From Solobacterium sp. (GTDB taxonomy: Bacteria > Bacillota_I > Bacilli_A > Erysipelotrichales > Erysipelotrichaceae), in the NCBI GenBank assembly GCA_017514645.1, contig JAFWJP010000159.1, positions 1 through 16,004 on the forward strand: a stretch of DNA of 16,004 nucleotides, read 5' to 3'. Positions 1-15,752 of the stretch are shown here, piece after piece. The notes below the pieces were generated by a model that was not told the origin of the DNA, did not search any database, and saw only the letters and a list, made by a program, of their open reading frames with translations. The number at the start of each line of letters is the position of its first letter. The stretch's first letter is position 1. A program made the position numbers and the translations under genes.

Positions 1-879
1 CTGGATGATGACGGTGCAGAGACGGTCGACAACCTGGCAGATCGCGTTGCCTGCCACAACAGCAGCGCCCATATGTCCCAGAACGATCGATACAGCCGTA
101 TTGCCCATTCCCAGCATGAAGTCGGAGATGAGCACCGGCGCACCGAGACGGAAGTACTTGCCGTAGAATTCGGAAGAAGGGGAACGCAGCAGATGCTTGA
201 TCCGCAGCCCCAGATCCTTGTCGATCACCAGGATATAGATAAACGTTGTCAGGAATTCCGCCAGCCTGGCAATCAGTGTTCCCAGGGCGGCACCGGCAAT
301 CTCCATGCGCGGCGCGCCCAGCCTTCCGAAGATGAATACCCAGTTGAAGAACAGGTTCACGAAGAATGAGATGATGGAGACAACGAGTCCGAGTTTCGGC
401 TGACCGACGGAACGCATCAATTGTGCGTATACCAGTCCGGTACCGTGCAAAGCAAAGATGAACGTTGTGATCTTCAGGTATTTCACACCCTGGAGGATGA
501 CATCCTGTTCATCGGTAAAGATGCGCATGATCCCGGCCGGAAAGAACCAGGTGAGCAGGGCAAAGACAAGGGCTGCACCCAGGGAAAGACGGAAGGCCAT
601 GCTGAAGGTTTCCCGTACCTTGGGCTTGTTGCCGGCACCCCAGTACTGGGCGGCCAGAACACTGGATCCGCCGATGATGCCCATGCAGATGATCGTGAAA
701 ATATTGTAGTACTGGTTGGCCAGACTGGACGCGGAGAGCTGTACTTCTCCGAACTGTCCGAGCATCATGGTGTCGAGCATGTTGACACCCATGTTGATGG
801 CCTGCTGCAGGGCGACCGGCAGCATGATCCCGAGTACTCGTCTGTAGAACTGTCTGTCAGCAATGATCTGTGGTTTCAT
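1..879 (-). CDS. MATE family multidrug/Na+ (or H+) antiporter, partial (C-terminus outside window)
   Basis: The minus strand is open from an ATG at 879-877 to the left edge: 293 codons in frame and no stop. The protein begins MKPQIIADRQFYRRVLGIML and is strongly hydrophobic with repeated membrane segments. Typical MATE motifs follow: a first helix ending in NMLDTMMLGQFG, then IIGGSSVLAAQYWGAGN, then SVGQPKLGLVVSIISFFVNL. These match the first half and start of the second half of MATE exporters, which are about 450 residues, so roughly 150 C-terminal residues are missing. Known family role: efflux of cationic drugs or toxic metabolites across the inner membrane, driven by Na+ or H+; the substrate cannot be told here. 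It is divergent from mutS. No good Shine-Dalgarno lies near the ATG (GAGAGG is about 21 bases upstream). An in-frame TTG at 885-883 is another possible start. Confidence 0.88.
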   Translation of the reverse strand, partial: MKPQIIADRQFYRRVLGIMLPVALQQAINMGVNMLDTMMLGQFGEVQLSASSLANQYYNIFTIICMGIIGGSSVLAAQYWGAGNKPKVRETFSMAFRLSLGAALVFALLTWFFPAGIMRIFTDEQDVILQGVKYLKITTFIFALHGTGLVYAQLMRSVGQPKLGLVVSIISFFVNLFFNWVFIFGRLGAPRMEIAGAALGTLIARLAEFLTTFIYILVIDKDLGLRIKHLLRSPSSEFYGKYFRLGAPVLISDFMLGMGNTAVSIVLGHMGAAVVAGNAICQVVDRLCTVIIQ

Positions 880-887
880 AATCAATA

Positions 888-893
888 ATTATA
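888..893 (-). promoter_or_regulatory. Candidate -10 box of the MATE gene
   Basis: Read on the minus strand this is a perfect TATAAT, only 8 bases before the ATG at 879-877. Transcription starting about 7 bases downstream would begin within a base or two of the start codon, giving an almost leaderless mRNA. No convincing -35 hexamer is seen at 16-18 bases. The position is consistent with the lack of a nearby Shine-Dalgarno, but the call rests on one hexamer. Confidence 0.35.
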
Positions 894-922
894 GGGCAAA
901 CCTCTCGTCAGTTGCACATGTT

Positions 923-931
923 TGTTATAAT
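923..931 (+). promoter_or_regulatory. Extended -10 promoter of the mutS-uvrA-hprK operon
   Basis: TGTTATAAT is a perfect TATAAT with the TGn extension, which lets sigma-A promoters work without a good -35; none is seen at the right distance. Transcription would start near 938. That makes the upstream in-frame ATG at 935 unlikely as the start and supports ATG 953. Confidence 0.55.
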
Positions 932-952
932 GTTATGGCTGAGGAAGAAACA

Positions 953-3475
953 ATGACGGAAAAACTGACACCGATGATGGAACAGTACTTTGAGATCAAG
1001 AAAGACTATCCTGACACGCTGCTGTTCTACAGGATCGGTGATTTTTATGAAATGTTCTATGAAGACGCGAAGATCGCTTCCCGGGAATTGGATCTGATCC
1101 TGACGGGAAAGAGCGTTGGTACACCGGAGCGGGCACCGATGTGCGGTGTTCCCCACCATGCGGTCACCCCGTACATCCAGCGCCTGGTACAGCGCGGCTA
1201 CAAAGTTGCCATTGTGGAGCAGACAGAAGATCCCAAGGCGGCCAAGGGCATCGTCAAGCGGGATGTGGTGCGCATCATCACGCCCGGTACGATGATGGAC
1301 GACACGAACAACGAAAAGAACAGCGTCTATATCGCGTCGATCGAAGACTGCGGCTACAGCTATGCGCTGGCCATGGCGGAGATGAGCACCGGTGAAAACA
1401 TGATCCGTGACTGTGCGCACAACTTCACATCGCTGATCCAGGTACTGCTGAGGAACAATGTACGGGAAGTGGTCGTCCGCACAGGATTTGAGCAGAAGAT
1501 CATCCTGCAGCTGCGGGAGATGCACATTGCTGTATCCTACTGTGACAGTGCGGACATCAAGGAGAACTACACTGCTCTTGCGTATGAAGTACGCAAGGAG
1601 CAGGACAGGGCGGCCTACGGCCGGCTGCTGGCGTATCTGGAAGAAACGCAGAGACAGCTGCTGGAACATCTGCAGCCGGCGGTCATCGAGCGGGAAGATA
1701 CCGTTCTGTACATGGATTTCAGCACGCAGAGGAACCTGGAACTGACAGAGTCTCTGCATCCTCAGAACAACGGTGAAACGCTCTGGTCGTTCCTCGATGT
1801 GTGCAGAAGCGCCATGGGTTCACGGAGACTGAAGCAGTGGATCGTCAAGCCGCTGGTTGACCGTGCGCTGATCGAACAGCGCTATGACCGTGTACAGGTT
1901 CTGATGAAGAACTTCCGGACACGGCAGAAGCTGCGGGATCATCTGAGCCGGATCTACGATGTACAGCGTTTGATTGCCCGGTGTGCGATGGGTACGGCCT
2001 CGGCTGTGGACTGTCAGCGCCTGGGAAAGACGTTGAACGAAGTGCCGGGGATCCTGGACTGTCTGAGTGATCCTGCTTTTGCGGAGTATGCCGGTACCGA
2101 CCGTCTGCAGGATCTCGGCGATATGCTCGCCAAAGCACTGAATGATGAACTTCCGGCTCAGTTCAGCAGCGGGAATATCTTCCGTGACGGATACAACGCG
2201 GAACTGGATGAAGCAAGAATGATCCAGCGCAACGGCAGACAGTTCATCGCTTCCCTGGAAGCGAAGGAACGGGAACGGACCGGGATCAAGACGTTGAAGA
2301 TCGGCTACAACAAGGTCTTCGGCTATTATATTGAGATTTCCAAGGGAGCCCTGGATCAGGTCAAGGATGAATGGGGCTATATACGCAAGCAGACCCTGGT
2401 GAACAATGAACGCTTCATCTCCCAGGAGCTGAAGGAGAAGGAAGACGCCATCCTGCACGCGGAAGAGAATGCCGCAAGGATCGAACGGATGCTGTTTGCG
2501 GAACTGCTGGATACAGTGCGCAGGCAGCTGGTGCCTCTGCAGAGACTGGCAGTGGTTCTGGCGGAACTGGACGTCTATGCGGCGTTGGCGGAGATCAGTG
2601 CCAAATACGGTTATGTACGTCCGGAATTCACGGATGATGAGATGGAGATCATCTCGGGCAAGCATCCGATCCTCGATGTCATGATGAAGGATCCCCGCTA
2701 CATTGCCAATGACCTGAAACTGAACCGGGAGAACTCCATCCTCCTGATCACCGGCCCGAATATGGGCGGTAAATCCACCTATATGCGTCAGACCGCACTG
2801 ATCGTGATCATGGCGCAGATGGGCTGTTTCGTACCGGCAAAGCGCTGCCGGATGCCGCTCATCGACAAAGTCTTCACCCGGATCGGTGCCAGTGATGACA
2901 TCCTTGCCGGTCAGTCTACGTTCATGGTGGAGATGAGCGAAGCGAACCATGCCCTGGAGAACGCAACGGAACACTCTCTGATCCTGTTTGATGAGATCGG
3001 CAGAGGGACATCCACCTATGACGGCATGGCACTTGCCCAGTCCATGATCGAATACATTGCGGCCGTGATCCACGCCAAGACGCTCTTCAGTACGCATTAC
3101 CACGAACTGACAATGCTGGCGGACAATATCCCTGCGATCCGCAACGTCCATGTCGTTGTCAAGGAAGACAACGAAAAGGTCACGTTCATGTACAAGGTCA
3201 AGGACGGCAGCGCGGACCGTTCCTACGGTATCAACGTAGCGAGACTTGCCGGTCTCCCCGAAGGTGTGATCGACCGTGCCGGACAGCTCCAGAAGGAACT
3301 GGAATCCAAGAAACGTGTCGTCCAGCAGAATTTCCAGCTGGTGGAAATGAAGCGGGAAAACCCGGCGGCGGAAAAGGTGCTCGGCATGCTGAAGGAAGTC
3401 AACGTTGACGATCTTTCCCCGCGGCAGGCCTGGCAGATGCTGGCAGACCTCAGCGAAGAAAGCAGAAAGGAGTAG
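953..3475 (+). CDS. mutS: DNA mismatch repair ATPase MutS
   Basis: The product recognises base mismatches and small loops after replication and starts repair with MutL. It has 840 residues, close to other MutS1 proteins (853 in E. coli). The mismatch-binding Phe-X-Glu motif is present in GDFYEMF (Phe31, Glu33), which distinguishes it from MutS2. The Walker A loop GPNMGGKST is at 601-609 and the Walker B/signature DEIGRGTST starts at Asp680. The C-terminus has the conserved [10 protein letters not shown] tail. I chose ATG 953 because GAGGAAG at 941-947 is correctly spaced before it and [12 protein letters not shown] matches the usual MutS N-terminus; earlier in-frame starts lie upstream of the promoter start. 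A beta-clamp motif of the QLSFF type is at best degenerate (QLVEM near the C-terminus). uvrA follows two bases after the stop; mutL does not follow. Confidence 0.97.
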
Positions 3476-3477
3476 AG

Positions 3478-6324
3478 ATGGAAGCGAACAAGATCATCAT
3501 CCATGGCGCAAAAGAGAACAATCTCAAGAACATCTCTTTGGAAATACCCAAGAACAAGCTCATTGTTATGACCGGTCTTTCCGGAAGCGGAAAGACATCA
3601 CTGGCCTTCGATACGATCTACGCGGAAGGTCAGCGGCGGTATGTGGAATCCCTCAGCGCCTATGCCAGAATGTTTCTGGGCGGTGTCGACAAGCCGAACG
3701 TAGAATCGATCGAAGGATTGTCTCCGGCGATCTCCATCGATCAGAAAACGACTTCGAACAACCCGCGTTCCACCGTCGGTACGGTAACGGAGATCTACGA
3801 CTATCTGCGTCTGCTCTATGCCCGTACAGGTGTACCGTACTGTCCGAACCACCATATTCCCATTACGGGCATGACGGTGACGGAGATGGTCGAAACCGTC
3901 TGGCAGAACGAAGACGGTACCAGACTGATGATCATGGCACCGATCGTACGGGAGAAGAAGGGAACCTACAAGGAAACGTTCACCAAGCTGCAGAAGGACG
4001 GTTATGTCCGTGTACGTGTGGACGGTGAGGTGCGCCTGCTGGAGGACGAAATCACTCTGGAGAAGAACCAGAGACACAATATTGACGTAATCGTGGACCG
4101 GATCATCAAGCGGGATGAGAACCGCAGCCGTGTCTTCGATTCCATAGAAACAGCACTGAATCTCGCGGACGGCAAGGTCATTGTTGCGGCAGGGGACAAG
4201 GAATCCCTGTACTCCAGCAGCTATGCCTGCCCGGTCTGCGGCTTTTCCGTACCGAACCTGGAACCGCGTCTGTTCTCGTTCAACGCTCCGCTGGGTGCCT
4301 GCAGTCTCTGCAACGGTCTGGGCATCACGGAAGAAGTGGATGTTGATCTGCTGATCCCGGATGACAGTCTGTCGCTGAATGAAGGCGCGATCCGCTACTA
4401 CAAGAACCTTGTCGGAACGGACAACATCGAATGGCAGACATTCTGCGTCCTGTGCCGGGCTTACCGCATCGATATGGACAAACCGGTGAAGAAGTTGACG
4501 GAAAAACAGATGAACATCGTACTGCACGGCAGTGACAAACCGATCAAATACTCCATCACTTCTTCCTCCGGCAACCAGTACTCCCGGAATGATTACATCG
4601 AAGGTGTCAAGGATCTGATCGAACGGCGTTACGGGGAGACCCAGAGCGCCTGGTCCAAGGACTGGTACCATTCCTTCATGGTGGAAAGCACCTGTCCGAA
4701 GTGCGGCGGAAAGCGCCTGAATGAGCAGGCTCTGTCCGTACAGGTCGCCGATAAGAACATCATGGAATACACAGCGATGTCGGTCGTGGACGCGCTGGAC
4801 TGGGTGAAGGATCTTCATCTCAGTGAAACGCAGGCAAAGATCGCGGAAATGGTCCTGAAGGAGATCCGTGACCGTCTGCAGTTCCTGAAGGATGTCGGTC
4901 TGGAATATCTGACCCTGGACCGTCTTGCCTGTACACTGTCGGGCGGTGAAGCACAGCGCATCCGTCTGGCAACCCAGATCGGCTCCCACCTGTCCGGTGT
5001 TCTCTATGTCCTGGATGAACCGAGTATCGGTCTGCATCAGCGGGACAACATGAAACTGATCGGTACGTTGAAGGAAATGCGGGATCTCGGCAATACGCTG
5101 ATCGTCGTTGAACATGACGAAGAAACGATGATGAACGCGGACTGGATCGTGGATATCGGCCCGGGTGCGGGCATCCACGGCGGAGAAGTCATTGCGGAAG
5201 GTACGCCGCAGGACATCATGAAGTGTGAAAACAGCATCACCGGTCAGGATCTCTCCGGGAAAAAGAAGATCAACGTTCCGGAAAAGCGCCGCAAAGGCAG
5301 CGGAAAGAGCGTGAAGATCTACGGTGCGTCGGAAAACAACCTGAAGCATATCGACGTTGAATTCCCGCTGGGCAAGTTCGTTGTGGTCACCGGTGTTTCC
5401 GGAAGCGGAAAATCCACCCTGGTCAATGAAGTGTTCATGAAGGCTGTCCAGCAGTCCATCGGACGGATGAAACGGGTGAAACCGGGCCGGTTCGACAAGA
5501 TCACCGGCACGAAGAACATCGACAAGCTGGTGCAGATCGATCAGGATCCGATCGGGAGAACGCCGCGCTCCAACCCGGCGACCTACACCGGTGTCTTCGA
5601 TGATATCCGGGAAGTGTTCGCCAATACACCGGAAGCGCGTCTGCGCAGCTATGACAAGGGACGCTTCTCGTTCAATACCAAGGGCGGACGGTGTGAGGCC
5701 TGCCAGGGAGACGGTGTCCGGGTCATCCGGATGAACTTCCTGCCGGATGTCTACGTCCCCTGTGAAGTATGTCACGGAAAGCGCTACAACGAGGAAACCC
5801 TGCAGGTTACCTTCAAGGGAAAGAATATCTATGAAGTGCTGGAGATGACGGCGGAAGAGGCACTGAGCCTGTTCGCCAACCATCCGCGCATTCACAGCAA
5901 ACTGCAGACGCTGAATGATGTCGGTCTGGGCTATGTCAAGCTCGGGCAGTCATCCACTACGCTTTCAGGCGGTGAAGCACAGCGCGTAAAGCTGGCAAGC
6001 GAACTGCAGCGCAAGCCGACAGGCAAGACGGTCTATATTCTGGATGAGCCGACGACGGGACTTCATACAGATGATGTCAAGCGTCTGATCGATGTTCTGT
6101 CCAAGATTGCGGACAGCGGGAATACGGTACTGGTCATTGAACATAATCTGGATGTGATCAAGAGCGCGGACTGGATCATTGATCTCGGTCCGGAAGGCGG
6201 TGACAACGGCGGAACGATCATTACCTGCGGAACACCGGAACAGGTTGCGGAAGTACCGGAATCCTGGACCGGTCAGTATCTGAAGAAAGCATTATACGGA
6301 TCATGGGAGGACTACGGGAAATGA
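3478..6324 (+). CDS. uvrA: Excinuclease ABC subunit A (UvrA)
   Basis: This is the damage sensor of nucleotide excision repair, a DNA-binding dimeric ATPase that loads UvrB on lesions. At 948 residues it is the normal family length. It has two ABC ATPase modules: Walker A 33-40 (GLSGSGKT) and 639-647 (GVSGSGKST), signatures LSGGEAQ at 487-493 and 829-835, and Walker B boxes LDEP at 512-515 and 855-858. The insertion-domain zinc site is Cys251/254/275/278. The essential C-terminal zinc finger is Cys739/742/762/765. The ATG follows AAGGAG (3467-3472), which lies in the end of mutS, so the two are almost certainly co-transcribed. Its last codon overlaps the start of the next gene (ATGA). In many Firmicutes uvrA follows uvrB; here uvrB is absent from the window. 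Confidence 0.98.
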
Positions 6325-7922
6325 CACTCCACAAAAAAGGCGTCCTGCTACGACAGATCAAGGATTTCTTCGATCTGGAACAGCTTTCCGGAGACGAACA
6401 TTCTCTGGACCGTTATATCTATGTGCCGGATGTGAACCGTCCCGGTCTGGAACTTGCGGGTATCGAAAGCCCGAACCAGCCGCACAGGATCATCATCATC
6501 GGCAACAAGGAATCCAACTACATCCATAACTACATGAGCGAGGAACAGCAGAAGGAACGTTTTGCCAGAATGATCAATCACAGTGATCCGGTCATCGTCA
6601 TGACGGACGGTATCGAAGCACCCTGCATTCTGCTGGAGATCGCCTCCATGATCAACTATCCCGTTCTACGTACGGCATCTCCGACAACCCGGTTCACCGT
6701 CGACCTGATTTCCTACCTGGATGAAGTTCTTGCGGAAGAGACAACGGTGTCCGGTGTTCTGATGGATGTCTACGGCAAGGGTGTGCTGATCACGGGACAC
6801 AGCGGAATCGGTAAATCGGAAGCGGCACTGGAACTGATGCGCGACGGACATGCGCTGATCGCGGATGACCGTGTGGACATTCAGCGCTATCACAACCATC
6901 TGGTGGGTTTCTCCCCGGAGATCCTTACCGGACTGCTGGAGATCCGCGGCATCGGTATCATCGATGCCAGAAGAATGTTCGGAGACAGCAGTTTCAAGGC
7001 CCGTTCCAACATTGACTTCGTGATCCGTCTGGTCGGCGGACAGCAGGAAGATGAAGGAATCGTGCGCATCGGTGATGAATACGAGCAGACAACGTCGATC
7101 CTGGGCGTCAAGCTTCCCCTGATCGTTCTGCCGGTCATGAGCGGACGCTCTACCTATGTGCTGATCGAGACAGCGGTTGCCAACTACATGTCCAAGGAAC
7201 AGGGCAATGACAGTGCGAAACTGTTCCGGAGGAACCTGAGCAGTCTGCTGCAGAAGAACAACCAGGAAGTCACCCGCCGCCGGCAGGAACAGACCGCTGT
7301 GCTGTTCGACCTGGACGGTACGCTGGCAGACACAGAACCCGCCATCATCCACAGCTATGAACAGGTATTCCGGACGTACGGATCTGTTGAGGATTTCACG
7401 CCGGAGCGAAGGATCGAAGTCCTGGGACCTTCCCTGGATGAAGAAATGCACAAGTTCTTCCCGTCGGTTCCGGTTCCGGAAATGATCGACCTGTACAAGA
7501 ACTACCAGACAGAACACCTTGCGGAATGGATCAAACCGATGCCGAACGCTGAAAAGACCCTGAAAGAAATCAGGGATCTCGGTTACAAAACCGGTATTGT
7601 AACGACCCGCAGGCATGATTCAGTACTGAACGTACTGGAAATTCTCGGATTAAAGGATTATTTTGATATTATCATAGGTCATGATGACGTTGAGCGCGGA
7701 AAGCCGGATCCGGAAGGCATCCTGAAGGCTGTGGATCAGCTTGGCTGCCGTCAGTCCGTGTATGTCGGCGACAGTGCCGGCGATATGCGGGCAGGGCGCG
7801 CAGCAGGATCGCTGACGGTCGCCTATCCGACCAAGGAAGAAAAACGCACTTCCCTGGAGAAGGCAGCGCCGGACTACATCATCAACGATCTGCATGACCT
7901 GATGGAAATACTGCATAAGTAG
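6321..7922 (+). CDS. hprK: HPr kinase/phosphorylase fused to a PpaX-like HAD phosphatase
   Basis: One uninterrupted 533-residue frame holds two enzymes. Residues 1 to about 315 are HprK, which phosphorylates HPr on serine with ATP or pyrophosphate and reverses this by phosphorolysis, releasing pyrophosphate; it controls CcpA-dependent catabolite repression. Seen: N-terminal NRPGLEL, P-loop GHSGIGKS (159-166), IADDRVD with Asp182/183, and signature EIRGIGIID (207-215). After a basic linker (about 316-324) comes a class I HAD domain: DLDGT (Asp330, Asp332), Thr428 in IVTT, Lys461 in GKPDPE, and GDSAGD (Asp484, Asp488). GPSL, GIVTT, DDV and KPDPE resemble B. subtilis PpaX, a pyrophosphatase. ATG 6321 overlaps the uvrA stop (ATGA) and follows GGGAGG (6305-6310). 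Oddity: Ser144 occupies the place of the L. casei active-site His140. Pyrophosphatase activity is inferred; phosphoglycolate is another possible substrate. Confidence 0.93.
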   Translation: MTLHKKGVLLRQIKDFFDLEQLSGDEHSLDRYIYVPDVNRPGLELAGIESPNQPHRIIIIGNKESNYIHNYMSEEQQKERFARMINHSDPVIVMTDGIEAPCILLEIASMINYPVLRTASPTTRFTVDLISYLDEVLAEETTVSGVLMDVYGKGVLITGHSGIGKSEAALELMRDGHALIADDRVDIQRYHNHLVGFSPEILTGLLEIRGIGIIDARRMFGDSSFKARSNIDFVIRLVGGQQEDEGIVRIGDEYEQTTSILGVKLPLIVLPVMSGRSTYVLIETAVANYMSKEQGNDSAKLFRRNLSSLLQKNNQEVTRRRQEQTAVLFDLDGTLADTEPAIIHSYEQVFRTYGSVEDFTPERRIEVLGPSLDEEMHKFFPSVPVPEMIDLYKNYQTEHLAEWIKPMPNAEKTLKEIRDLGYKTGIVTTRRHDSVLNVLEILGLKDYFDIIIGHDDVERGKPDPEGILKAVDQLGCRQSVYVGDSAGDMRAGRAAGSLTVAYPTKEEKRTSLEKAAPDYIINDLHDLMEILHK

Positions 7923-7935
7923 GAGGAATAAAACT

Positions 7936-8319
7936 ATGCTGGAAAACAAAATCGTATTCGGCAGCGGCTTCAACGGCACCATGGAAGCCGGCGGACAGAC
8001 CATCGTCATCAGCGGCCCGGGTGTTCATCCGTATGACATGACATTCGGTGCGACAGCTTCCTGTCTGTATTCGACATTCCTGGATTATGTGAATGCGAAT
8101 CAGCTGGATGTCCGCGGAGCAGAAATCATCGTTACAGGTGAAAAGAGAACAGAACCGGATCCCTGCTATCTGACATGGGTCAATGTCGATATCACGGTTG
8201 ATTCCGATGAAGATATGGAAGACATCGAAAAGGCATGGGACTATGCCTGGAAGAACTGCTCGATGCTGAACATGGTCGCACATGTTGCAAAGTGCACATT
8301 CGATCTGAAAAAGAAATAA
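7936..8319 (+). CDS. OsmC family protein (OsmC/Ohr-like thiol peroxidase fold)
   Basis: The product has 127 residues, typical of short OsmC-like proteins. The two family cysteines are visible: Cys43 in ATASCLYSTFL and Cys108 in NCSMLNMVA, the pair that reduces organic hydroperoxides in OsmC and Ohr. The core pattern GPGVHPYDMTFGATASC also fits OsmC. The second site lacks the usual Cys-Pro (here Cys-Ser), so peroxidase activity is probable but not assured, and this branch is less well characterised than true Ohr. AGGAGG (7921-7926) overlaps the stop of hprK and precedes the ATG by 9 bases, so it is very likely the last gene of the mutS-uvrA-hprK transcript. A terminator follows directly. Confidence 0.82.
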   Translation: MLENKIVFGSGFNGTMEAGGQTIVISGPGVHPYDMTFGATASCLYSTFLDYVNANQLDVRGAEIIVTGEKRTEPDPCYLTWVNVDITVDSDEDMEDIEKAWDYAWKNCSMLNMVAHVAKCTFDLKKK

Positions 8320-8331
8320 TAACGGATCATG

Positions 8332-8359
8332 AGCCTGTACATTCACGTACGGGCTTTTT
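8332..8359 (+). terminator. Rho-independent terminator of the mutS-to-OsmC operon
   Basis: The arms AGCCTGTAC and GTACGGGCT form a 9-bp stem with one G-U pair, a 6-base loop, and run into five Ts. It lies 12 bases after the OsmC stop. Confidence 0.88.
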
Positions 8360-8374
8360 ATCCGCAAAGACATG

Positions 8375-8406
8375 AAACCCTGCATACGCTGGATATGCAG
8401 GGTTTT
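8375..8406. terminator. Perfect 12-bp hairpin between convergent operons, probable bidirectional terminator
   Basis: AAACCCTGCATA and TATGCAGGGTTT pair perfectly around a 7-base loop (8387-8393). On the plus strand the stem ends in TTTT, and on the minus strand in TTT. It sits 4 bases past the stop of the minus-strand ABC permease and 16 bases past the plus-strand terminator, so it can back up the first terminator and end the minus-strand operon. The short T-run on the minus strand makes that direction less sure. Confidence 0.7.
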
Positions 8407-8409
8407 CTG

Positions 8410-9027
8410 TTACAGATCCTTTTTTTCGTAGATCCGGACAGAGAGCATCCAGGAACAGAAGTAGATCAGGATCACCAGTGCCGCACCGGCCGGAAGGATC
8501 ATCGGCCCGGATTTGATCAGTATTCCGAGGATCGGTCCCCCGTAGTTGATGATTGCCATGCCGCACAGCACCATGACCATGATCACGGCCATACGTACCA
8601 TCTGTCCCTTTACATGCCCGAATTTCACATTGATCGGGAAGGACACCGAGAATACCAGCATGGACATGGCCAGCGACATGCCGGTCGTGGCAAGGACGGC
8701 TGCCGTTTCCGCCTTCCGCAGGATCAGGTTCAGTACAAGGTAGAACAGGATCATTCCGGCGGAAGTGATGATGTGGACCAGGTAGCGTTCGGAGATGATC
8801 GTCTTCCGCTTCAGCGGCAGGATGTCGCAGTAGCTCAGCCATCCGGTCTGTTCATCCACCGCCATCAGGGATGGTATGATCGTACTGAAGAAGAACAGGC
8901 CGTAGGTTGCCCAGAACGCATTGTCCGGGTGTATGGAGCCCAGAATGATGAATCCAACGCACATGATCACGTAGATCCGGAATGACCTCAGCAGCGTCAG
9001 CCGGTCTTTATAGAGCAGTCACTTCAT
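8410..9027 (-). pseudogene. ABC-2 type permease with an in-frame TGA at codon 3
   Basis: From ATG 9027-9025, which overlaps the ATPase stop (ATGA) and has GGAG well placed upstream, the frame reads Met-Lys-stop, then LLYKDRLTLLRSFRIYVIM and an open frame to TAA at 8412-8410. Without the stop the protein would be 205 residues. About six membrane segments are visible, for example IITSAGMILFYLVLNLIL and VIMVMVLCGMAIINY. The start MK-X-LLYKD and the length fit the small ABC2_membrane_5-like permeases that pair with YtrB-type ATPases behind a GntR regulator. So a complete permease exists apart from one codon, consistent with CGA to TGA or a sequencing error. The first ATG/GTG start after the stop is GTG at 8970-8968, giving 186 residues; it has lost the cytoplasmic N-terminus and has no clear Shine-Dalgarno. 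It may still be expressed by readthrough (TGAC context) or reinitiation. Confidence 0.7.
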
Positions 9028-9866
9028 TTTTTGTCTCCTTTCACCATGAAGACAAACAGGTCTTCAATATCCACCGTTCCTGTTTCCATCTCCGGAATCC
9101 GGTCTTTCCGGACGATCGCGTCAATTCCGTACGGTGTTGTCCGGGTACCGACGATAGCCTCCGGATCCAGTTCCACCAGTTCTTCCGCCGTACAGTGCAG
9201 GGTACCGTACAGCTCCTTGATCCGGTCCTTCTCCTCCACCAGAATCATCTTTCCTTCGTGCAGGAAGCTGACATAGTCGCAGACCTTCTCCAGATCACTG
9301 ACGATGTGCGACGACAGCAGAACGGTATGATTCTCCTCCCGGGTAAAGTCCAGCAGGATATCCAGCAGTTCATCACGGACGACCGGATCCAGACCGCTTG
9401 TCGCCTCATCCAGCAGGAGAAGGCGCGGACGGTGGGACATTGCACAGGCAATGCCGGCCTTCATCTTGTTGCCGCGGGACATCTGCGAAAACGTCTTGTC
9501 TTCCGGAATCTTCAATGTCCGGATCAGTTCCCTGTAGCGATCCTCATCCCAGTTTTTGTAGATTCCTTTCATGATCATGCCGATCTCATTCATCTTCATG
9601 GCTGAAGGCAGATTGACATCATCCATGACCACACCGATCTCTTCCTTGATCCCCGGATGTGCCCGCAGATCCGTCTGTCCCAGCACTTCCGCTGTACCGC
9701 TGTCCTGCCGGATCATACCCAGCAGGATCCTCATAATCGTGGATTTGCCGGCACCGTTCTCACCGACCAGTCCCATGATCATCCCTTCCGGAACGGACCA
9801 GGTCAGATCCTGAAGCGTATATCCCGGCCAGTGTTTGGTGACGTTTTTCATTTCGATCGCGTTCAT
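9024..9866 (-). CDS. ABC transporter ATP-binding protein (YtrB/BcrA-like)
   Basis: A 280-residue ABC ATPase. Walker A is GENGAGKST (35-43), the signature MSRGNKMKAG (129-138), Walker B LLLLDE with Asp153/Glu154, D-loop SGLD, and the switch His187 in LSSHIV. SRGNKMK replaces the common LSGGQ; such signatures occur in ATPases of GntR-linked exporters. I chose ATG 9866 rather than a longer version because it overlaps the regulator stop (ATGA) and has GGAGGAG a few bases upstream; it also gives the normal start MNAIEMKNVTK. It should power the membrane protein encoded next. Related systems respond to cell-wall antibiotics or bacitracin, but no substrate can be read here. If the permease is dead, the ATPase has no partner in this window. 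Confidence 0.92.
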   Translation of the reverse strand: MNAIEMKNVTKHWPGYTLQDLTWSVPEGMIMGLVGENGAGKSTIMRILLGMIRQDSGTAEVLGQTDLRAHPGIKEEIGVVMDDVNLPSAMKMNEIGMIMKGIYKNWDEDRYRELIRTLKIPEDKTFSQMSRGNKMKAGIACAMSHRPRLLLLDEATSGLDPVVRDELLDILLDFTREENHTVLLSSHIVSDLEKVCDYVSFLHEGKMILVEEKDRIKELYGTLHCTAEELVELDPEAIVGTRTTPYGIDAIVRKDRIPEMETGTVDIEDLFVFMVKGDKK

Positions 9867-10240
9867 TGCGTCTCCTCCCAGATGGTATTCCACATCTCAA
9901 GTACTTCTTCTTTTGTCAGGCTGCAGGCTAAGGCAAGCGCACGGATCTCTTCCATGGCGGCTTCCATGCGCCTCAGATTGCCTTCCCGCACCAGTTCCAG
10001 GTTCTTCTCTGCCACAAAGCATCCTTTTCCCGCTACCGTGTACAGGAAGCCTTCCTTCTCCAGCTCATCATACGCGCGCTTGGTGGTGATCACGCTGATG
10101 CGCAGGTCCTTGGCAAGCGTGCGGATGGATGGCAGGGGATCTTCGGGTTTCAGGGTACCGTTGATGATCTGGTCCTTGATCTGGGTATAGATATGGGTAT
10201 AGATCGGGGTACCGCTGCGGTTATCGATCAGTATGTTCAT
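9863..10240 (-). CDS. GntR family transcriptional regulator, YtrA subfamily
   Basis: A 125-residue repressor-type protein. The winged helix-turn-helix spans roughly residues 10-75: GTPIYTHIYTQIKDQIINGT, then LPSIRTLAKDLRISVITTKR and AYDELEKEGFLYTVAGKGCF. The remaining 50 residues form a short helical tail with no room for a ligand-binding domain, which is the YtrA subfamily pattern. YtrA-type regulators usually repress their own ABC transporter operon. ATG 10240-10238 is preceded by AGAGG about 7 bases upstream; longer in-frame versions run back over the promoter and are not plausible. The stop overlaps the ATPase start. A palindrome overlaps its transcription start, which suggests autorepression. 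Confidence 0.92.
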   Translation of the reverse strand: MNILIDNRSGTPIYTHIYTQIKDQIINGTLKPEDPLPSIRTLAKDLRISVITTKRAYDELEKEGFLYTVAGKGCFVAEKNLELVREGNLRRMEAAMEEIRALALACSLTKEEVLEMWNTIWEETQ

Positions 10241-10250
10241 TCCGTTACCT

Positions 10251-10276
10251 CTGTATATATACAGTATATACAGTAT
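10251..10276. promoter_or_regulatory. Candidate GntR (YtrA-type) operator
   Basis: CTGTATATATACAG (10251-10264) is a perfect 14-bp palindrome. The 9-mer TATATACAG occurs twice in tandem (10256-10264 and 10265-10273), so a second overlapping half-site array exists. The block covers the -10 and start point of the regulator's own promoter. Symmetry fits a dimeric GntR protein; binding itself is inferred. Confidence 0.68.
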
Positions 10277-10290
10277 GCACGGATTGTCAA
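10263..10290 (-). promoter_or_regulatory. Promoter of the GntR-ABC operon
   Basis: On the minus strand there is a perfect -35 TTGACA (10290-10285), a 16-base spacer and a -10 TATACT (10268-10263). The start point falls near 10256, inside the palindrome, about 16 bases before the ATG. Confidence 0.8.
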
Positions 10291-10336
10291 CGTGATACGC
10301 AATTGTCTTTTCCTGTGTACCGACAGGAAGAGGGCA

Positions 10337-10345
10337 TGATAAAAT
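10337..10345 (+). promoter_or_regulatory. Candidate extended -10 of the rapZ operon
   Basis: TGATAAAAT has the TGn extension plus TAAAAT (5 of 6 matches). No good -35 is seen. Transcription would start about 10351-10353, at the second of the two possible rapZ start codons, so the mRNA might be leaderless. An alternative is a promoter further upstream that I did not recognise. Confidence 0.35.
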
Positions 10346-10346
10346 A

Positions 10347-11219
10347 ATGAACATGGAAAACACAAAGGAAATCATACTCATCAGCGGAATGAGCGGTGCC
10401 GGGAAGAGCGCCGTATCCCGTATTCTGGAGGATATGGGTTATTTCTGCATTGATAATCTGCCTGCCAGCCTGATCGGTGCGTTTGTGAAGATGGTGGAGA
10501 CATCGGGTGATGTGCGCTATCGTCAGCTGGCCCTGAGTACATCTGCAGCGGATTTTCCGGAATTTCTGAATTCCCTGAAGGGAGAAGGGCTGGAGATGCA
10601 GGTGCTGTTTCTGGACTGTGAAGACAAGGAACTGCTCAGCCGGTACAAGAGCACACGGCGGTCTCATCCGCTGCTTCTGAGCAACCAGGCAAATACACTG
10701 GAAGAAGCCATCAGCGTGGAGCGTTCCATGTTCCAGGCATACCGTCAGGATTCCTTCCTGAACCTGGACACGACCTATCTGAGCGAGAAACAGCTGAAGG
10801 CAAGACTGGTCAAGTACTTCGGAAAGCGTTCAGAACCGACGTTCTCGGTATCTTTCATTTCCTTCGGCTACAAGCACGGGGTACCGATGGATGCCGATCT
10901 CATGGTGGATGTACGTTTCCTGCCGAACCCGTTCTGGGTAGAGGAACTGCGTTCGCATACCGGCAATGACCGCGATGTGTACGACTATGTCATGGACAAT
11001 GATCAGACGCGGGAATTCCTGCACTATTTCCTGGAATTCACGAACTACGCGTTCCGGGAATACGCCAAGGAAGGCAAGAATCACTTTACCTGTGCCATCG
11101 GCTGTACGGGCGGACAGCACCGTTCAGTCGCCATAGCCAATTACCTGTATGAGTATTACAAGGATGATTACCGGTGCTATCTGGAACACCGTGACATCGA
11201 CAGGGACAGGAAATCATGA
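10347..11219 (+). CDS. rapZ: RapZ/YvcJ family nucleotide-binding protein
   Basis: A 290-residue P-loop protein. The Walker A loop GMSGAGKS is at 14-21, followed by the family motif IDNLPASLI (about 34-42). The C-terminal half ends in the conserved GCTGGQHRSVAIA (about 251-263). In B. subtilis YvcJ binds and hydrolyses nucleotides; in E. coli RapZ is an RNA-binding adaptor that tunes glucosamine-6-phosphate synthase through sRNAs. The role in this organism is not settled by sequence. The start is ambiguous: ATG 10347 or ATG 10353 (288 residues). A purine-rich AGGAAGAGGG at 10324-10333 is rather far from both. The stop overlaps the yvcK start, and the rapZ-yvcK-whiA order is the conserved Gram-positive cluster. 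Confidence 0.95.
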   Translation: MNMENTKEIILISGMSGAGKSAVSRILEDMGYFCIDNLPASLIGAFVKMVETSGDVRYRQLALSTSAADFPEFLNSLKGEGLEMQVLFLDCEDKELLSRYKSTRRSHPLLLSNQANTLEEAISVERSMFQAYRQDSFLNLDTTYLSEKQLKARLVKYFGKRSEPTFSVSFISFGYKHGVPMDADLMVDVRFLPNPFWVEELRSHTGNDRDVYDYVMDNDQTREFLHYFLEFTNYAFREYAKEGKNHFTCAIGCTGGQHRSVAIANYLYEYYKDDYRCYLEHRDIDRDRKS

Positions 11220-12160
11220 AGCGGGTGGTCGTGATCGGCGGCGGACACGGACAGTCCCAGATCTGCCGCTCCATCAAGAATATCGACGATATCAGTATCA
11301 GTGCCATTGTGACGGTTGCGGATGACGGGGGCAGTACCGGCCGTCTGCGCCGGCAGTTCAGCATTCCGGCCATGGGTGATATCCGGAACGTCATGATCTC
11401 TCTGGCAGAGCGGGAAACAACGATGAGTGAACTGATGGATTACCGCTTTGATGATCCGGACGGTACGGAAACGGATATCCACGGACATAATCTCGGGAAT
11501 CTGATCCTGACGGCGATGACACAGCTGAGCGGGTCTTTTCTTGAGGCGATCCAGACGGTCGGCGATGTTCTGAACGTCAGGGGAAGGATCATACCCGCAA
11601 CATCCCAGGTCATTACGCTGTACGCACTGATGCGGGATGGGGTGATCGTGAAGGGGGAAGCGAATATTCCTACGGTGCACAACCACATCTCCAAGGTGTT
11701 CTATGACTGCGATGTAGCGGCGACACCTGCGGCTGTGGAGGCGATTCTGGAAGCGGATCTGATCATCTACGGCATCGGTTCGGTCTATACGAGCCTGATC
11801 CCGAATATCATCATTCCGGGAATCAGACAGGCTCTGAAGGAGACAAAGGCAAAGCGTGTCTATTTTGCCAATGCCATGACCCAGCCGGGCGAGACGGACG
11901 GCTACAGTGTGGAAGACCATGTACAGGCCCTGCTGGATCATGGGGCACCGGTGGATATGGTCGTCATTGCGGATGATGAACTGCCGAAGCAGAATGTCCG
12001 CAATTACTTCAACCAGAACAGCATGCCGGTACTTCTGGAGGAAACAGAACATGATTACGAGGTGCTGGAAGTACCTCTGCTCGGATTTGAGAACGGGCTG
12101 ATCCGTCATGATACGGAAAAACTGCGCAGGGTCGTGGAAACTCTGCTGGAAGGTATCTGA
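11216..12160 (+). CDS. yvcK: YvcK/GlmR family protein (gluconeogenesis and cell-wall precursor factor)
   Basis: A 314-residue member of the CofD/YvcK fold. It shows the N-terminal glycine loop GGGHGQS (8-14), ADDGGSTGRLR (35-45), and GHNLGNLILTA near residue 90. The loop has His where B. subtilis has Thr (GGGTG). In B. subtilis the protein binds UDP-GlcNAc, helps direct carbon to amino sugars through GlmS, and is needed for normal shape on gluconeogenic substrates. The family is related to a 2-phospho-L-lactate transferase of F420 synthesis, but F420 function is not expected here. The start ATG lies in ATGA with the end of rapZ; the stop TGA shares one base with the whiA ATG, so all three are translationally coupled. 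Confidence 0.95.
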   Translation: MKRVVVIGGGHGQSQICRSIKNIDDISISAIVTVADDGGSTGRLRRQFSIPAMGDIRNVMISLAERETTMSELMDYRFDDPDGTETDIHGHNLGNLILTAMTQLSGSFLEAIQTVGDVLNVRGRIIPATSQVITLYALMRDGVIVKGEANIPTVHNHISKVFYDCDVAATPAAVEAILEADLIIYGIGSVYTSLIPNIIIPGIRQALKETKAKRVYFANAMTQPGETDGYSVEDHVQALLDHGAPVDMVVIADDELPKQNVRNYFNQNSMPVLLEETEHDYEVLEVPLLGFENGLIRHDTEKLRRVVETLLEGI

Positions 12161-13134
12161 TGTCCTTTGCGGGTGATATCAAGGCGGAAATCGCGCTGAA
12201 TGAGCTGGAAGAGGCAGAATCGACGGCGGAACTGTCAGCACTGATCCAGATGACGTCGTCCCTTTCGATTTCCAGCCGGGGGCTGACGCTGGTCTGTACG
12301 ACGCAGAATGCCGGGGTGGCAAGGCTGATCTACCGCCTCTGCCGTGATCGCTATGATGCCAGGATCACACCTGCCGTCAAGCGCCGGGTGAATCTGAAGA
12401 AGAATCTGATCTATACGCTCCGGATCGAGGGAGATGTCAAGGAGATCCTGAGCGATCTGGGACTGTATTCCGCCTACGGACTGCGGGACCGGCCGCTGAT
12501 GAAGGTCGTTGCCAGGGACAGCTGTGCCCGGGCATATCTGGCCGGTGCGTTCATGGCCCAGGGTTCCTGCAATTCACCGGAGACATCGAACTACCATCTG
12601 GATATTCTCTGCAACAACCGGAAGCACGCTGAGTTCATCCAGGAGCTGATGGATCGGTTCGGGATTGACGCAAAGCTGAGCGAACGCCGCGGACATGATA
12701 TCGTCTATGTCAAGGCTGCTGAGAAGATCGGGGATTTTCTCCGGGTGATCGGGGCAGACCGCTGTCTGATGGAATTCGAGGAAGTGCGGATCGACCGGGA
12801 TCTTGCCAGCAGTATTACCCGTCTGAACAATGTGGAAGTGGCCAATGTTGTCAGGGTCATGAAGGCCGGACAGGAACAGCTGGAGGACATAGCGGTCCTG
12901 GAAGAGTACGATATTGTCAGGAATCTGGATGAGCGGCTGAAGGATATCATTGATCTCAGGAAGCGCTATCCGGAAACTTCGCTCAGTGAACTGGCGGAGA
13001 TCTATGAAGAAGAGACCGGAAACAGGATGTCCAAATCCGGTCTGAAACATCGTTTTGTCAAACTGCATGAACTGCGGGTCAAAGCGGAAAAGGACAGGAA
13101 GGAGAGACATGATCACAAAGGCAAACAGCGGTGA
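12160..13134 (+). CDS. whiA: WhiA family DNA-binding protein
   Basis: The product has 324 residues, near the family norm. The N-terminal part is the LAGLIDADG-like domain that has lost nuclease function; its core YLAGAFMAQG is at 126-135, followed by a SCNSPETSNYHLDI stretch typical of WhiA. The C-terminal helix-turn-helix is at about 268-302 (SLSELAEIYEEETG, then MSKSGLKHRFVKL). In Streptomyces it controls sporulation genes; in Bacillus it influences division and chromosome segregation. ATG 12160 shares a base with the yvcK stop (TGATG) and GGAAGG (12148-12153) precedes it. The C-terminal tail is very basic and overlaps the next gene by 26 bases. Confidence 0.95.
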   Translation: MSFAGDIKAEIALNELEEAESTAELSALIQMTSSLSISSRGLTLVCTTQNAGVARLIYRLCRDRYDARITPAVKRRVNLKKNLIYTLRIEGDVKEILSDLGLYSAYGLRDRPLMKVVARDSCARAYLAGAFMAQGSCNSPETSNYHLDILCNNRKHAEFIQELMDRFGIDAKLSERRGHDIVYVKAAEKIGDFLRVIGADRCLMEFEEVRIDRDLASSITRLNNVEVANVVRVMKAGQEQLEDIAVLEEYDIVRNLDERLKDIIDLRKRYPETSLSELAEIYEEETGNRMSKSGLKHRFVKLHELRVKAEKDRKERHDHKGKQR

Positions 13135-14023
13135 CAGAACCGCAGTGAAGAATATCTGGAAGAAGAACTACTCCACCATGGATCCCCGTTACCTGGAGTA
13201 TCATTTCCGCAATGAATGGAAGGAAGAAGATACACTGACCAGTGTCCGGGAGGGAGAACTGATCGGAGCGGTGGAACGCAGAAAGTATCCGCTGATGTTC
13301 AACGGACGCGTACTGCAGGCAAGCGTGCTTTCGGGACTGGTGTTTGAGCCGCGTCTGCGCAGTGCGGCAAATGAGCTGGAACTGGTGGACAGCGTGATCG
13401 ATGCCTGTGAGCATTCCGAACTGCTGACGCTGGTATCCACGGAGCGGGCGGATCTGTACAGGGCGTACCGGTTTGAACCGGTATACCGCAGAAGGGACTA
13501 TCATCTCACCAGGAACAAGATCCAGAGCATTACGATCTTCGGATGTGCCTACGATCCGTCTCCTCTGGATATGATCAAGGTCTATTCCAACTTCAGCAAG
13601 CGCTTCAACGGATTCTTTGCCAGAACCCTGGAGGATTTCAAGGAACTGAAGCAGGAAGTCGCCGCAAGGAGCGGAAAGATCGTTGCCTACTACGATGCGA
13701 AAAATAACATCCGGGGATACGCTGTGCTGCTCATCGAAGGACGGGAAGTCCGCATCCGGGAATGTGTCTATCTGGATTCCATGGCGCTGATGAAGCTGGT
13801 GAACGCAGCGCTGCAGGACAGAGCGGATGTTCATCTGGTCGTATCCGAGGCGGAAAAACTGGATGTACTGTTTCCGGACTGCGATGTACGGATCTACGAT
13901 TCCATGCTGGTGAGGCTCAATGACGCGGAACTGTTCTCGCGTCTCTTCGGCAAAAGAGTACAGACCGCGAAGGAAGCGTTCGCGCTGTCCATCCGGCCCC
14001 TCAATTTAAGTGAACTCAGATAG
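13109..14023 (+). CDS. Eis-like two-domain GNAT acetyltransferase, short form
   Basis: A 304-residue protein starting MITKANSGDRTAVKNIWKKN, a typical GNAT opening. Residues 1 to about 140 resemble the first GNAT domain of Eis-type enzymes, with a strand ending LVFEP and a late block LYRAYRFEPVYRRRDY. Residues about 150-265 resemble the second, cofactor-free GNAT domain (NGFFARTLEDF, then IRGYAVLLIEG and VRIRECVYL). Eis proteins of about 400 residues end in an SCP2-like domain; here only its start is left (MLVRLNDAELFSRLFG). Where a GNAT enzyme has R-G-x-G for acetyl-CoA, this one reads RSAANE (84-89), so activity is doubtful. ATG 13109 has AGGAAGGAG just before it and overlaps whiA; longer in-frame starts run further into whiA. 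Substrate unknown. Confidence 0.65.
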   Translation: MITKANSGDRTAVKNIWKKNYSTMDPRYLEYHFRNEWKEEDTLTSVREGELIGAVERRKYPLMFNGRVLQASVLSGLVFEPRLRSAANELELVDSVIDACEHSELLTLVSTERADLYRAYRFEPVYRRRDYHLTRNKIQSITIFGCAYDPSPLDMIKVYSNFSKRFNGFFARTLEDFKELKQEVAARSGKIVAYYDAKNNIRGYAVLLIEGREVRIRECVYLDSMALMKLVNAALQDRADVHLVVSEAEKLDVLFPDCDVRIYDSMLVRLNDAELFSRLFGKRVQTAKEAFALSIRPLNLSELR

Positions 14024-14033
14024 ATGAATGGTG

Positions 14034-14039
14034 TATAAT
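14034..14039 (+). promoter_or_regulatory. -10 box of gap
   Basis: A perfect TATAAT about 10 bases after the GNAT stop. The best -35 at 17 bases is the weak TGAACT (14011-14016). Start expected near 14046. No terminator separates gap from the rapZ operon, so readthrough could add to its transcription. Confidence 0.55.
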
Positions 14040-14048
14040 AGGCGAAGA

Positions 14049-14062
14049 GAGTTTTGAAACTC
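14049..14062 (+). promoter_or_regulatory. 5' leader stem-loop of gap mRNA, next to the Shine-Dalgarno
   Basis: GAGTTTTGAAACTC can fold as a 5-bp stem with a 4-base loop, almost at the predicted 5' end of the mRNA and touching AGGAGG at 14063-14068. Such 5' stems can protect abundant mRNAs from decay. The Shine-Dalgarno stays free. The same AGGAGG, 9 bases before ATG 14078, decides the start of gap over a TTG at 14054. Confidence 0.45.
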
Positions 14063-14077
14063 AGGAGGATAATCATT

Positions 14078-15118
14078 ATGAAAAATGTAAGAGTAGCGAT
14101 CAACGGATTCGGCCGTATCGGTCGTCTGGCATTCCGTCAGATGTTCGGTGCTGAAGGATATGAGATCGTGGCAATCAACGACCTGACAAAGCCTTCCATG
14201 CTGGCAAACCTGCTGAAGTATGATACAGCGCAGGGCGGCTATGCCGGTGCTTACGGTGAAGGCAAGCACACAGTCACAGCTGATGACGAGGCAAACACGA
14301 TCACCGTTGACGGCAAGACACTGCAGATCTACAAGGAAGCTGATGCGGCCAAGCTGCCGTGGGGCGAACTGGATGTCGATGTTGTTCTGGAGTGCACAGG
14401 CTTCAACACAAAGAAGGAAAAAGCACAGGCACACATCGATGCAGGCGCGAAGAAGGTCGTTATCTCCGCTCCGGCAGGAAATGATCTGCCGACGATCGTC
14501 TACAACGTCAACCACAAGACACTGACACCGGAAGACAAGATCATTTCTGCAGCATCCTGCACAACGAACTGCCTGGCTCCGATGACAGACGCACTGAACA
14601 AGTACGCTCCGATCCAGAGCGGTATCATGTGCACAGTCCACGCTTATACAGGCGACCAGATGATCCTGGACGGACCGCACCGCAAGGGTGACCTCCGCCG
14701 TGCACGTGCCGGTGCTTCCAACATCGTTCCGAACAGCACAGGTGCTGCGAAGGCCATCGGTCTGGTTATTCCGGAACTGAACGGCAAGCTCATCGGTTCT
14801 GCTCAGCGTGTTCCGACGATTACAGGTTCCACGACACTGCTGTTTGCGGTCGTCAAGGGTGAGGATATCACGGTTGAAGGCATCAACGCAGCAATGAAGG
14901 CAGCTGCCAACGAGTCCTTCGGCTACAACGAGGATCCGATCGTTTCTTCCGATATCATCGGCATGCGTTTCGGTTCCCTGTTCGACGCAACACAGACGAT
15001 GGTCACAAAGATTGCGGACGGACTGTATGAAGTACAGGTTGTCTCCTGGTATGACAACGAGAACTCCTACACATCCCAGATGGTCAGGACGATCAAGTAC
15101 TTCGCTGAACTGGCTTAA
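14078..15118 (+). CDS. gap: Glyceraldehyde-3-phosphate dehydrogenase, type I, NAD-dependent
   Basis: A 346-residue cytosolic glycolytic enzyme that oxidises glyceraldehyde-3-phosphate to 1,3-bisphosphoglycerate with NAD+. The Rossmann motif INGFGRIGR is at the N-terminus, followed by INDL, whose Asp favours NAD over NADP. The active-site block SAASCTTNC carries the catalytic Cys161; the base is His188 in VHAYTGDQ. The C-terminal [12 protein letters not shown] is canonical. Codon choice differs from the neighbours, with heavy use of ACA for Thr and GCA/GCT for Ala, as expected for a very highly expressed gene. It stands alone between its own -10 and a strong terminator, without pgk or tpi. The NAD-type Asp and the glycolytic context make it the catabolic GapA type rather than GapB. 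Confidence 0.98.
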
Positions 15119-15131
15119 TACTGTACAGCAG

Positions 15132-15159
15132 AAGATCACTCTCCGGAGTGATCTTTTTT
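15132..15159 (+). terminator. Strong Rho-independent terminator of gap
   Basis: AAGATCACTC and GAGTGATCTT form a perfect 10-bp stem closed by a TCCG tetraloop and end in six Ts. It begins 14 bases after the gap stop. Confidence 0.95.
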
Positions 15160-15168
15160 CATGTCTGC

Positions 15169-15177
15169 TGATATACT
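15169..15177 (+). promoter_or_regulatory. Extended -10 of the nitroreductase operon
   Basis: TGATATACT contains TATACT with the TGn extension, just after the gap terminator. The -35 region would fall inside the terminator and is not recognisable. The start would be near 15184, leaving a leader of about 20 bases with AGAAGGA before the ATG. Confidence 0.45.
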
Positions 15178-15204
15178 TGAATTAATACGAAAGAAGGATA
15201 CAGT

Positions 15205-15732
15205 ATGGAATTCAATGAACTGCTTCAGAAACGGCGCAGTGTACGTGCCTACACCGAACCCGCACCGCATGATGCGATCCGGGACATCCTGATCAAGGCC
15301 CAGCAGGCACCGTCCTGGGCCCATACTCAGAATGCGAGATGCTATGTGGTGGAAAGCCCGGAAATGCTGGAGGATTTCCGCAATGCGGTCCTGCCGGAGT
15401 TCAACCAGAAGAACTCTGCCAACGCTGCTCTGATCGTAACGACTTTCGTCAAGGGTCTGGCCGGGTTTTCCCGGGGAATACAGATGAATGAACCGGGAGA
15501 GGAGTGGGGAGCCTACGATCTCGGTCTGCATGATGCGTATCTGATATTTGCCGCAAGAGATGCCGGATACGATACGCTGATCATGGGAGCCCGCAACGGA
15601 GAGATGATCCGTGAGATGCTGGGAATCCCGGAGAACGAAGAAGTAATGTCGGTGATCGCCATCGGTAAGCAGGCAGCGGAACCGAACGAACGTACCCACA
15701 AGGATCCGGATGAAGTGATCCGCTTCTTCTGA
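15205..15732 (+). CDS. Nitroreductase family protein (FMN-dependent)
   Basis: A 175-residue flavoenzyme of the nitroreductase/oxidoreductase fold. The N-terminal RRSVRAYT (10-17) supplies the FMN phosphate contacts Arg10 and Ser12. QQAPSWAHTQNARCYVV matches the second flavin-binding strip, and IREMLGIPENEEVMSVIAIG is the usual C-terminal block. Members reduce nitro groups, quinones or flavins with NAD(P)H; the natural substrate is not evident. AGAAGGA (15192-15198) precedes the ATG. The flavin reductase-like gene 20 bases downstream, with its own Shine-Dalgarno, suggests a two-gene redox operon. Confidence 0.9.
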   Translation: MEFNELLQKRRSVRAYTEPAPHDAIRDILIKAQQAPSWAHTQNARCYVVESPEMLEDFRNAVLPEFNQKNSANAALIVTTFVKGLAGFSRGIQMNEPGEEWGAYDLGLHDAYLIFAARDAGYDTLIMGARNGEMIREMLGIPENEEVMSVIAIGKQAAEPNERTHKDPDEVIRFF

Positions 15733-15752
15733 TCGGAAAAGGAGAAATGAAT

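Follow-up and report, generated by a model that had tools for sequence, protein, structure and literature searches.

HprK/P phosphorylates the protein HPr on Ser46, and its P-Ser-HPr phosphorylase reaction yields pyrophosphate, which is also usable as a phosphate donor (passages of PMC2937029). The same passages attribute to Mijakovic 2002 the proposal that YvoE (PpaX), a pyrophosphatase encoded in the hprK operon, favors dephosphorylation of P-Ser-HPr, and they mention a yeast two-hybrid interaction between HprK/P and the pyrophosphatase PPa of Brucella melitensis. In a survey of 222 genomes HprK is a single polypeptide, the one exception being Fusobacterium nucleatum with its joined HprK domains (excerpt of PMC2405797); that tandem protein is likewise an HprK fusion, but it consists of two HprK domains and contains no phosphatase. 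The listings returned by our literature searches included no paper on an HprK-pyrophosphatase fusion. Here we analyze a gene of Solobacterium sp. in which hprK is fused in frame to a gene for a PpaX-like phosphatase of the HAD family. It lies on a 16,004-nucleotide stretch of DNA (GenBank assembly GCA_017514645.1, contig JAFWJP010000159.1, positions 1 to 16,004), referred to below as the window; the window's genome is denoted G000.

The fusion gene occupies positions 6321-7922 on the plus strand, the strand of all features given below unless stated otherwise, as a single stop-free frame of 533 aa. Its ATG overlaps the stop codon of the upstream uvrA gene, and protein P0001 uses the same start; the earliest ATG of the frame, at 6303, would give a product of 539 aa (6303-7922), and it is to this longer frame that the Pfam residue numbers refer. 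Three Pfam domains, all well over their cut-offs, follow one another in the order Hpr_kinase_N, Hpr_kinase_C and HAD_2. The HPr kinase N-terminal domain (PF02603) spans 6348-6719 (residues 16-139) and the C-terminal catalytic domain (PF07475) spans 6726-7235 (residues 142-311), with the Walker A P-loop GHSGIGKS at 6795-6818, the DD pair within IADDRVD at 6858-6878 and the HprK signature EIRGIGIID at 6939-6965 recognized as sequence motifs. The HprK half then ends in a predicted helix and passes into a linker (together 7236-7292), as judged from the predicted structure and from comparison with G027 and G080, two other genomes that carry the fusion. The PpaX-like HAD phosphatase domain follows at 7293-7916, assigned from HAD_2, from a 159-bit match to NF009804 (cut-off 218) and from trees. 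Its sequence motifs are FDLDGTLADT (motif I, 7305-7334), GIVTTRR (motif II region, 7593-7613), GKPDPE (motif III region, 7698-7715) and GDSAGD (motif IV, 7767-7784). An earlier note on this DNA, made from its letters alone, had described HprK and HAD in one open frame with all of these HprK and HAD motifs, a description that is borne out. Its "basic linker" is a peculiarity of the window sequence, where the linker is Arg-rich; in G027 and G080 the same segment is acidic and Gln-rich. The HAD half of the predicted structure is confident and matches HAD phosphatases, with no firm word on substrate.

The fusion recurs, but only within a narrow group. Unbroken copies were found in three genomes, G000, G027 and G080 (69%, 80% and 95% complete, respectively), out of 272 searched in the family and 315 in the order, and in both lists the fourth-ranked match is already interrupted by a stop. 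Protein searches covered 5.8 billion proteins, with sensitivity limited to those sharing exact words with the query. When the whole frame was searched (7997 candidates scored), P0002 (75% identity) and P0003 (70%) carried both parts and ranked before the HprK-only proteins among the best 120 of 3537 matches; identity to the window is 70-75% across G027, G080 and P0003. A search with the HAD region, restricted to proteins of 296-943 aa and thus to sizes above those of free HADs (~215 aa), found 48 proteins: 3 HprK-HAD fusions, 37 Lgt-HAD fusions, 3 with PF01982 and 5 others. A padded query for the HprK region, limited to proteins between about 460 and 1470 aa, returned 9 proteins from 4109 candidates, namely the same 3 HprK-HAD fusions and 6 with unrelated partners, so that HprK fusions are rare. 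Throughout these searches the HprK-HAD fusions were confined to one Solobacterium-like clade, and in the phylogeny that the earlier note had called for, a 70-row HprK tree, all five fused rows form a single clade with support of 100/100.

Both halves of the protein are under purifying selection. The ratio of nonsynonymous to synonymous substitution (dN/dS) is 0.04 for the HprK half and 0.02 for the HAD half between G027 and G080; between G000 and G080, where synonymous divergence is near 1, the values are 0.14 and 0.24. The 18 codons before the HAD domain are more weakly constrained (0.22 and 0.51 in the same two comparisons). No stop or frameshift separates the domains, a possibility that the earlier note had named as fatal, and because independent assemblies (G027 and G080, P0002 and P0003) carry the frame unbroken, a slip in sequencing is for practical purposes excluded. 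Together, the results indicate that the fusion is a real, clade-restricted joining of two known families that was reached by a clear evolutionary path.

By sequence comparison, the HAD half belongs with PpaX-like proteins and apart from proteins resembling phosphoglycolate phosphatase (PGP). Its best NCBIfam match is PpaX (NF009804, 159-161 bits), the next model scoring 102. It reaches only 95-103 bits with the two best phosphoglycolate phosphatase models, which have cut-offs of 180 and 225, and fails the curated score of one of them, TIGR01449 (95 to 99 bits, cut-off 180). In a 122-row HAD tree, 17 PGP-like rows were separated from all others with a Shimodaira-Hasegawa-like approximate likelihood ratio (SH-aLRT) support of 100, and the fused HADs fell on the same side as 25 PpaX rows, 9 of them over the curated cut-off. 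None of the PGP-like matches in the 195 genomes searched passed its own family cut-off, and the outgroup is therefore labeled PGP-like. The clustering with phosphoglycolate phosphatases that the earlier note had offered as a refutation did not occur; its PpaX-like assignment is sustained by the tree and the best family match, although not by the curated cut-off, and for this last reason we write PpaX-like rather than PpaX. The catalytic residues D, D, K, D and D are present in every copy aligned, comprising 5 fused, 31 adjacent (one of which, G245, comes from outside the genus), 29 on Lgt-derived proteins that have lost the Lgt motif (pseudo-Lgt, described below) and 15 fused to Lgt. The domain thus resembles PpaX/YvoE of the Bacillus hprK-lgt-yvoD-yvoE cluster in best family match, tree placement and genomic partner; it differs in scoring below the curated cut-off and in being part of HprK, whereas PpaX/YvoE is a free protein.

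The HprK half is recognizably an HprK/P (TIGR00679; structures 1ko7, 1knx and 1jb1), sharing both Pfam domains, the P-loop, the DD pair, the signature and a curated score of 311.5 bits against a cut-off of 240. Walker A, the DD pair and the EIRGxGIID signature are kept in 5/5 fused proteins. It departs from described HprK/P in carrying a HAD domain after its C-terminal helix, in the P-loop residue that precedes SGIGKS (H, K or I in fused proteins; D or E in most relatives) and in having Ser at the position of Lactobacillus casei His140 (codon at 6750-6752, placed by alignment), a residue named as a catalytic histidine in an excerpt of PMC1885854. The "complete HprK" of the earlier note therefore holds for domains, signature motifs and curated score, which is passed without this histidine, and fails at the H140 position. 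All 22 HprKs read outside the genus have His there, and all five fused proteins have Ser. Among the 60 other, non-fused HprKs of the genus, 51 have Ser, 5 have His and 4 have another residue. This unexpected change is most likely older than the fusion. It is also present where the HAD sits on a membrane-type pseudo-Lgt, and of the five genus HprKs that retain the histidine, three adjoin a HAD gene and two a pseudo-Lgt carrying HAD.

The path to the fusion can be read from the surroundings of hprK in relatives. Of 70 genus genomes, 65 had an hprK match at 1e-60, and in these the gene was fused in 3, followed directly by a HAD gene in 30, succeeded in 29 by a gene for an Lgt-related::HAD protein (about 420-500 aa), and otherwise arranged in 3; the Lgt-related::HAD following hprK is cut by a contig end in G024, a contig end also interrupts the reading in G001, and G091 has hprK with no HAD. 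A HAD thus lies beside or within hprK in 62 of the 63 genus genomes with a readable neighborhood. Where the genes are adjacent, hprK and HAD overlap by exactly 4 bp in 18 of 30 genomes, as judged from mechanically assigned start codons. Outside the genus 22 genomes were read; hprK has Lgt::HAD directly downstream in 16 of them and is followed by Lgt in 5 and by HAD in 1 (G245). These Lgt::HAD proteins (for example L045) belong to the same HAD lineage and carry the HAD at the C terminus, as the fusion does; unlike in the fusion, the partner is the membrane enzyme Lgt, which has decayed or disappeared in the window's genus. All 21 Lgt parts from beyond the genus have the motif GRxGNFxNxE, whereas none of the 30 within it does, and the Lgt part is absent from the hprK locus of 33 genus genomes. 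With the cut-off at 118.9 bits, one pseudo-Lgt that was scored reached 60.6 and one intact Lgt copy 206.9.

In the 70-row tree the next group (95/83) enclosing the 5 fused rows adds 11 HAD-adjacent rows to them, and a quick 89-row HprK tree agrees. A joint origin of the Lgt-free state was rejected by the approximately unbiased (AU) test (p 6e-6), four changes being needed; given the Lgt::HAD outgroup, these changes were probably losses. The HAD therefore outlived its Lgt partner more than once, beside hprK, before the fusion, and the link between hprK and HAD survives the decay of the Lgt part between them. A pseudo-Lgt::HAD with the Lgt motif lost and the HAD intact occurs at L053:1683-3026 and at 28 other genus loci, and the pseudo-Lgt may now anchor the HAD to the membrane. 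Of the 70 genus genomes, 67 have some Lgt-family match, all three fused ones among them. The Lgt encoded away from hprK is of a different subtype (L205-L216), with GR[IL]GC in 12/12 copies examined, and may have replaced the operon copy; this genus Lgt also bears GRFxxEFxRGD-type motifs.

What the joining might achieve follows from the chemistry of the two families. Despite the H140 change, the HprK half would dephosphorylate P-Ser-HPr by phosphorolysis and release pyrophosphate, and the HAD half, for which pyrophosphate is the predicted substrate, would hydrolyze it where it is released. Joining the halves would raise local pyrophosphate removal and blunt pyrophosphate-driven phosphorylation of HPr, in an enzyme that presumably remains a hexamer. 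That a fused HprK/PpaX-like polypeptide pulls the switch toward free HPr, its HAD half clearing the pyrophosphate released by HprK, is a reading that we hold to be evenly poised between right and wrong, and the similar interpretation in the earlier note is to this extent partly supported. A fuller version, in which a covalent HprK-pyrophosphatase phosphorylates HPr, dephosphorylates it by phosphorolysis and destroys the pyrophosphate in place, making dephosphorylation effectively one-way, and in which the HAD moved from Lgt to HprK after HprK had lost its histidine, is offered more tentatively, its chances falling a little short of even. The window's genome encodes an HPr that has both His15 and Ser46.

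Several observations weigh against this reading. All five fused proteins have Ser in place of the H140 histidine in their HprK half. Scores of the HAD half stay below the PpaX equivalog cut-off (159-171 bits against 218; P0003, 170.5). The linker is not conserved, and the predicted structure has a predicted template modeling (pTM) score of 0.52 and does not fix the orientation of the HprK and HAD domains. Other pyrophosphatase families are encoded, so that pyrophosphate may well be removed anyway: a membrane pyrophosphatase in G000 and G080, and DHHA2 proteins in G027 and G080 (frames of 545 and 269 aa), with a DHHA2 match of 39 bits (cut-off 27) in a 388 aa frame of G000. A membrane pyrophosphatase was not found in G027, nor a family I pyrophosphatase in any of the three, and since these genomes are incomplete such absences are weak evidence. 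No CcpA match in the 70 genus genomes passed the cut-off of 442, the best matches being those of G027 and G080 at 255 bits, with G000 at 142. One genus hprK (G091, L103) has no adjacent HAD and is followed by a 546 aa frame of another nature, and 5 of the 70 genomes lacked an hprK match at 1e-60 and so left their neighborhoods out of the count. Lastly, 37 of the 48 proteins of 296-943 aa have a HAD of this kind joined to Lgt, and operon neighbors therefore fuse here without a proven functional reason.

On an alternative view the fusion is an incidental product of two genes that overlap, with the HAD working as it does when separate and covalent joining bringing no coupling. The 4-bp overlap common among relatives with adjacent genes is a short step from fusion, the same HAD lineage has been joined to Lgt, and the linker is not conserved. 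Such an origin without coupling is unlikely, though to be taken seriously: the fused state has been retained with both halves constrained in three species, and in P0003 too, and fusion to HprK is rare among proteins longer than about 460 aa. We consider it quite improbable that the HAD acts on another phosphate ester, the link with HprK being operon history only. Lgt releases glycerol-1-phosphate, and this sn-glycerol-1-phosphate of the lipoprotein pathway, or prenylglyceryl phosphate, could be the substrate; Lgt::HAD is the commonest fused form found, and the missed PpaX cut-off fits as well. Excerpts of PMC12345273 assign the Bacillus phosphatase gene yvoE to an hprK-lgt-yvoD-yvoE-yvoF cluster together with a gene for lipoprotein acetylation, and they leave open a redundant role of the phosphatase; the same excerpts describe its gene as dispensable for lipoprotein acetylation, the lipoprotein masses that were read being unchanged when yvoE was deleted. 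Furthermore, the HAD of the genus stays with hprK although the Lgt part is motif-less or gone, while the Lgt encoded elsewhere is of a different subtype in the 12 copies examined.

The loss of the H140 histidine raises a further alternative, in which the HprK half would act chiefly as a kinase and P-Ser-HPr would lose its phosphate to the HAD half itself, so that kinase and phosphatase would be paired in a single chain. The contrast between a histidine termed catalytic, invariant in the 22 HprKs outside the genus, and its replacement by Ser in all fused and most other genus HprKs speaks for such a pair. The capped HAD subclass concerned usually takes small-molecule substrates, however, and the change is seen also where the HAD rides on a membrane-type pseudo-Lgt, while in the five genus HprKs that keep the histidine the HAD adjoins nonetheless, so that we regard this pair as very doubtful. 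An assembly or sequencing error that joined two genes might be suspected, given that the fusion examples of named source are metagenome assemblies and that G000 is a draft in 307 contigs. Independent assemblies share this junction at 70-75% identity, although their synonymous sites have diverged and their linker is a different one; these independent copies refute such an error in practice, and we give it almost no weight.

The fusion gene lies between uvrA (3478-6324), which it overlaps, and an OsmC-family gene (7936-8319), both identified as open reading frames with Pfam matches. On the minus strand, between osmC and rapZ, the window encodes a GntR regulator, an ABC ATPase and an ABC-2 membrane protein (8410-10381). 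In G027 (L074), osmC and rapZ are only about 20 bp apart, and the window's cluster of ~2 kb is therefore an insertion relative to G027 or was lost there. Two HPr domains lie in larger frames, G034:C181:58396-58635 (438 aa) and G030:C39:30479-30715 (445 aa), and these are perhaps HPr fusions. The six HprK fusions with unrelated partners (P0166-P0171), five in single-member clusters and the sixth in a cluster of two, come from one contig each, and some may be assembly joins; from their Pfam accessions we take the partners to be ROK, UvrC, peptidase M18, response-regulator, LacI-type and transglutaminase-type domains. P0159-P0161 combine a HAD of the fusion's kind with PF01982 in one protein.

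That some Bacillota retain a pyrophosphatase gene within the hprK operon has hitherto been explained by a proposal (Mijakovic 2002, as cited in passages of PMC2937029). The fusion and its relatives, in which the genes are separate and overlapping or the HAD sits on a decayed Lgt, form a comparative series of joined and unjoined states. The series exposes a route by which domains exchange partners through an operon, and it brings to light a genus in which most of the HprKs read are without the H140 histidine. It would also allow a test of whether local removal of pyrophosphate determines in which direction the HPr-Ser46 switch, the control on sugar preference, is driven.

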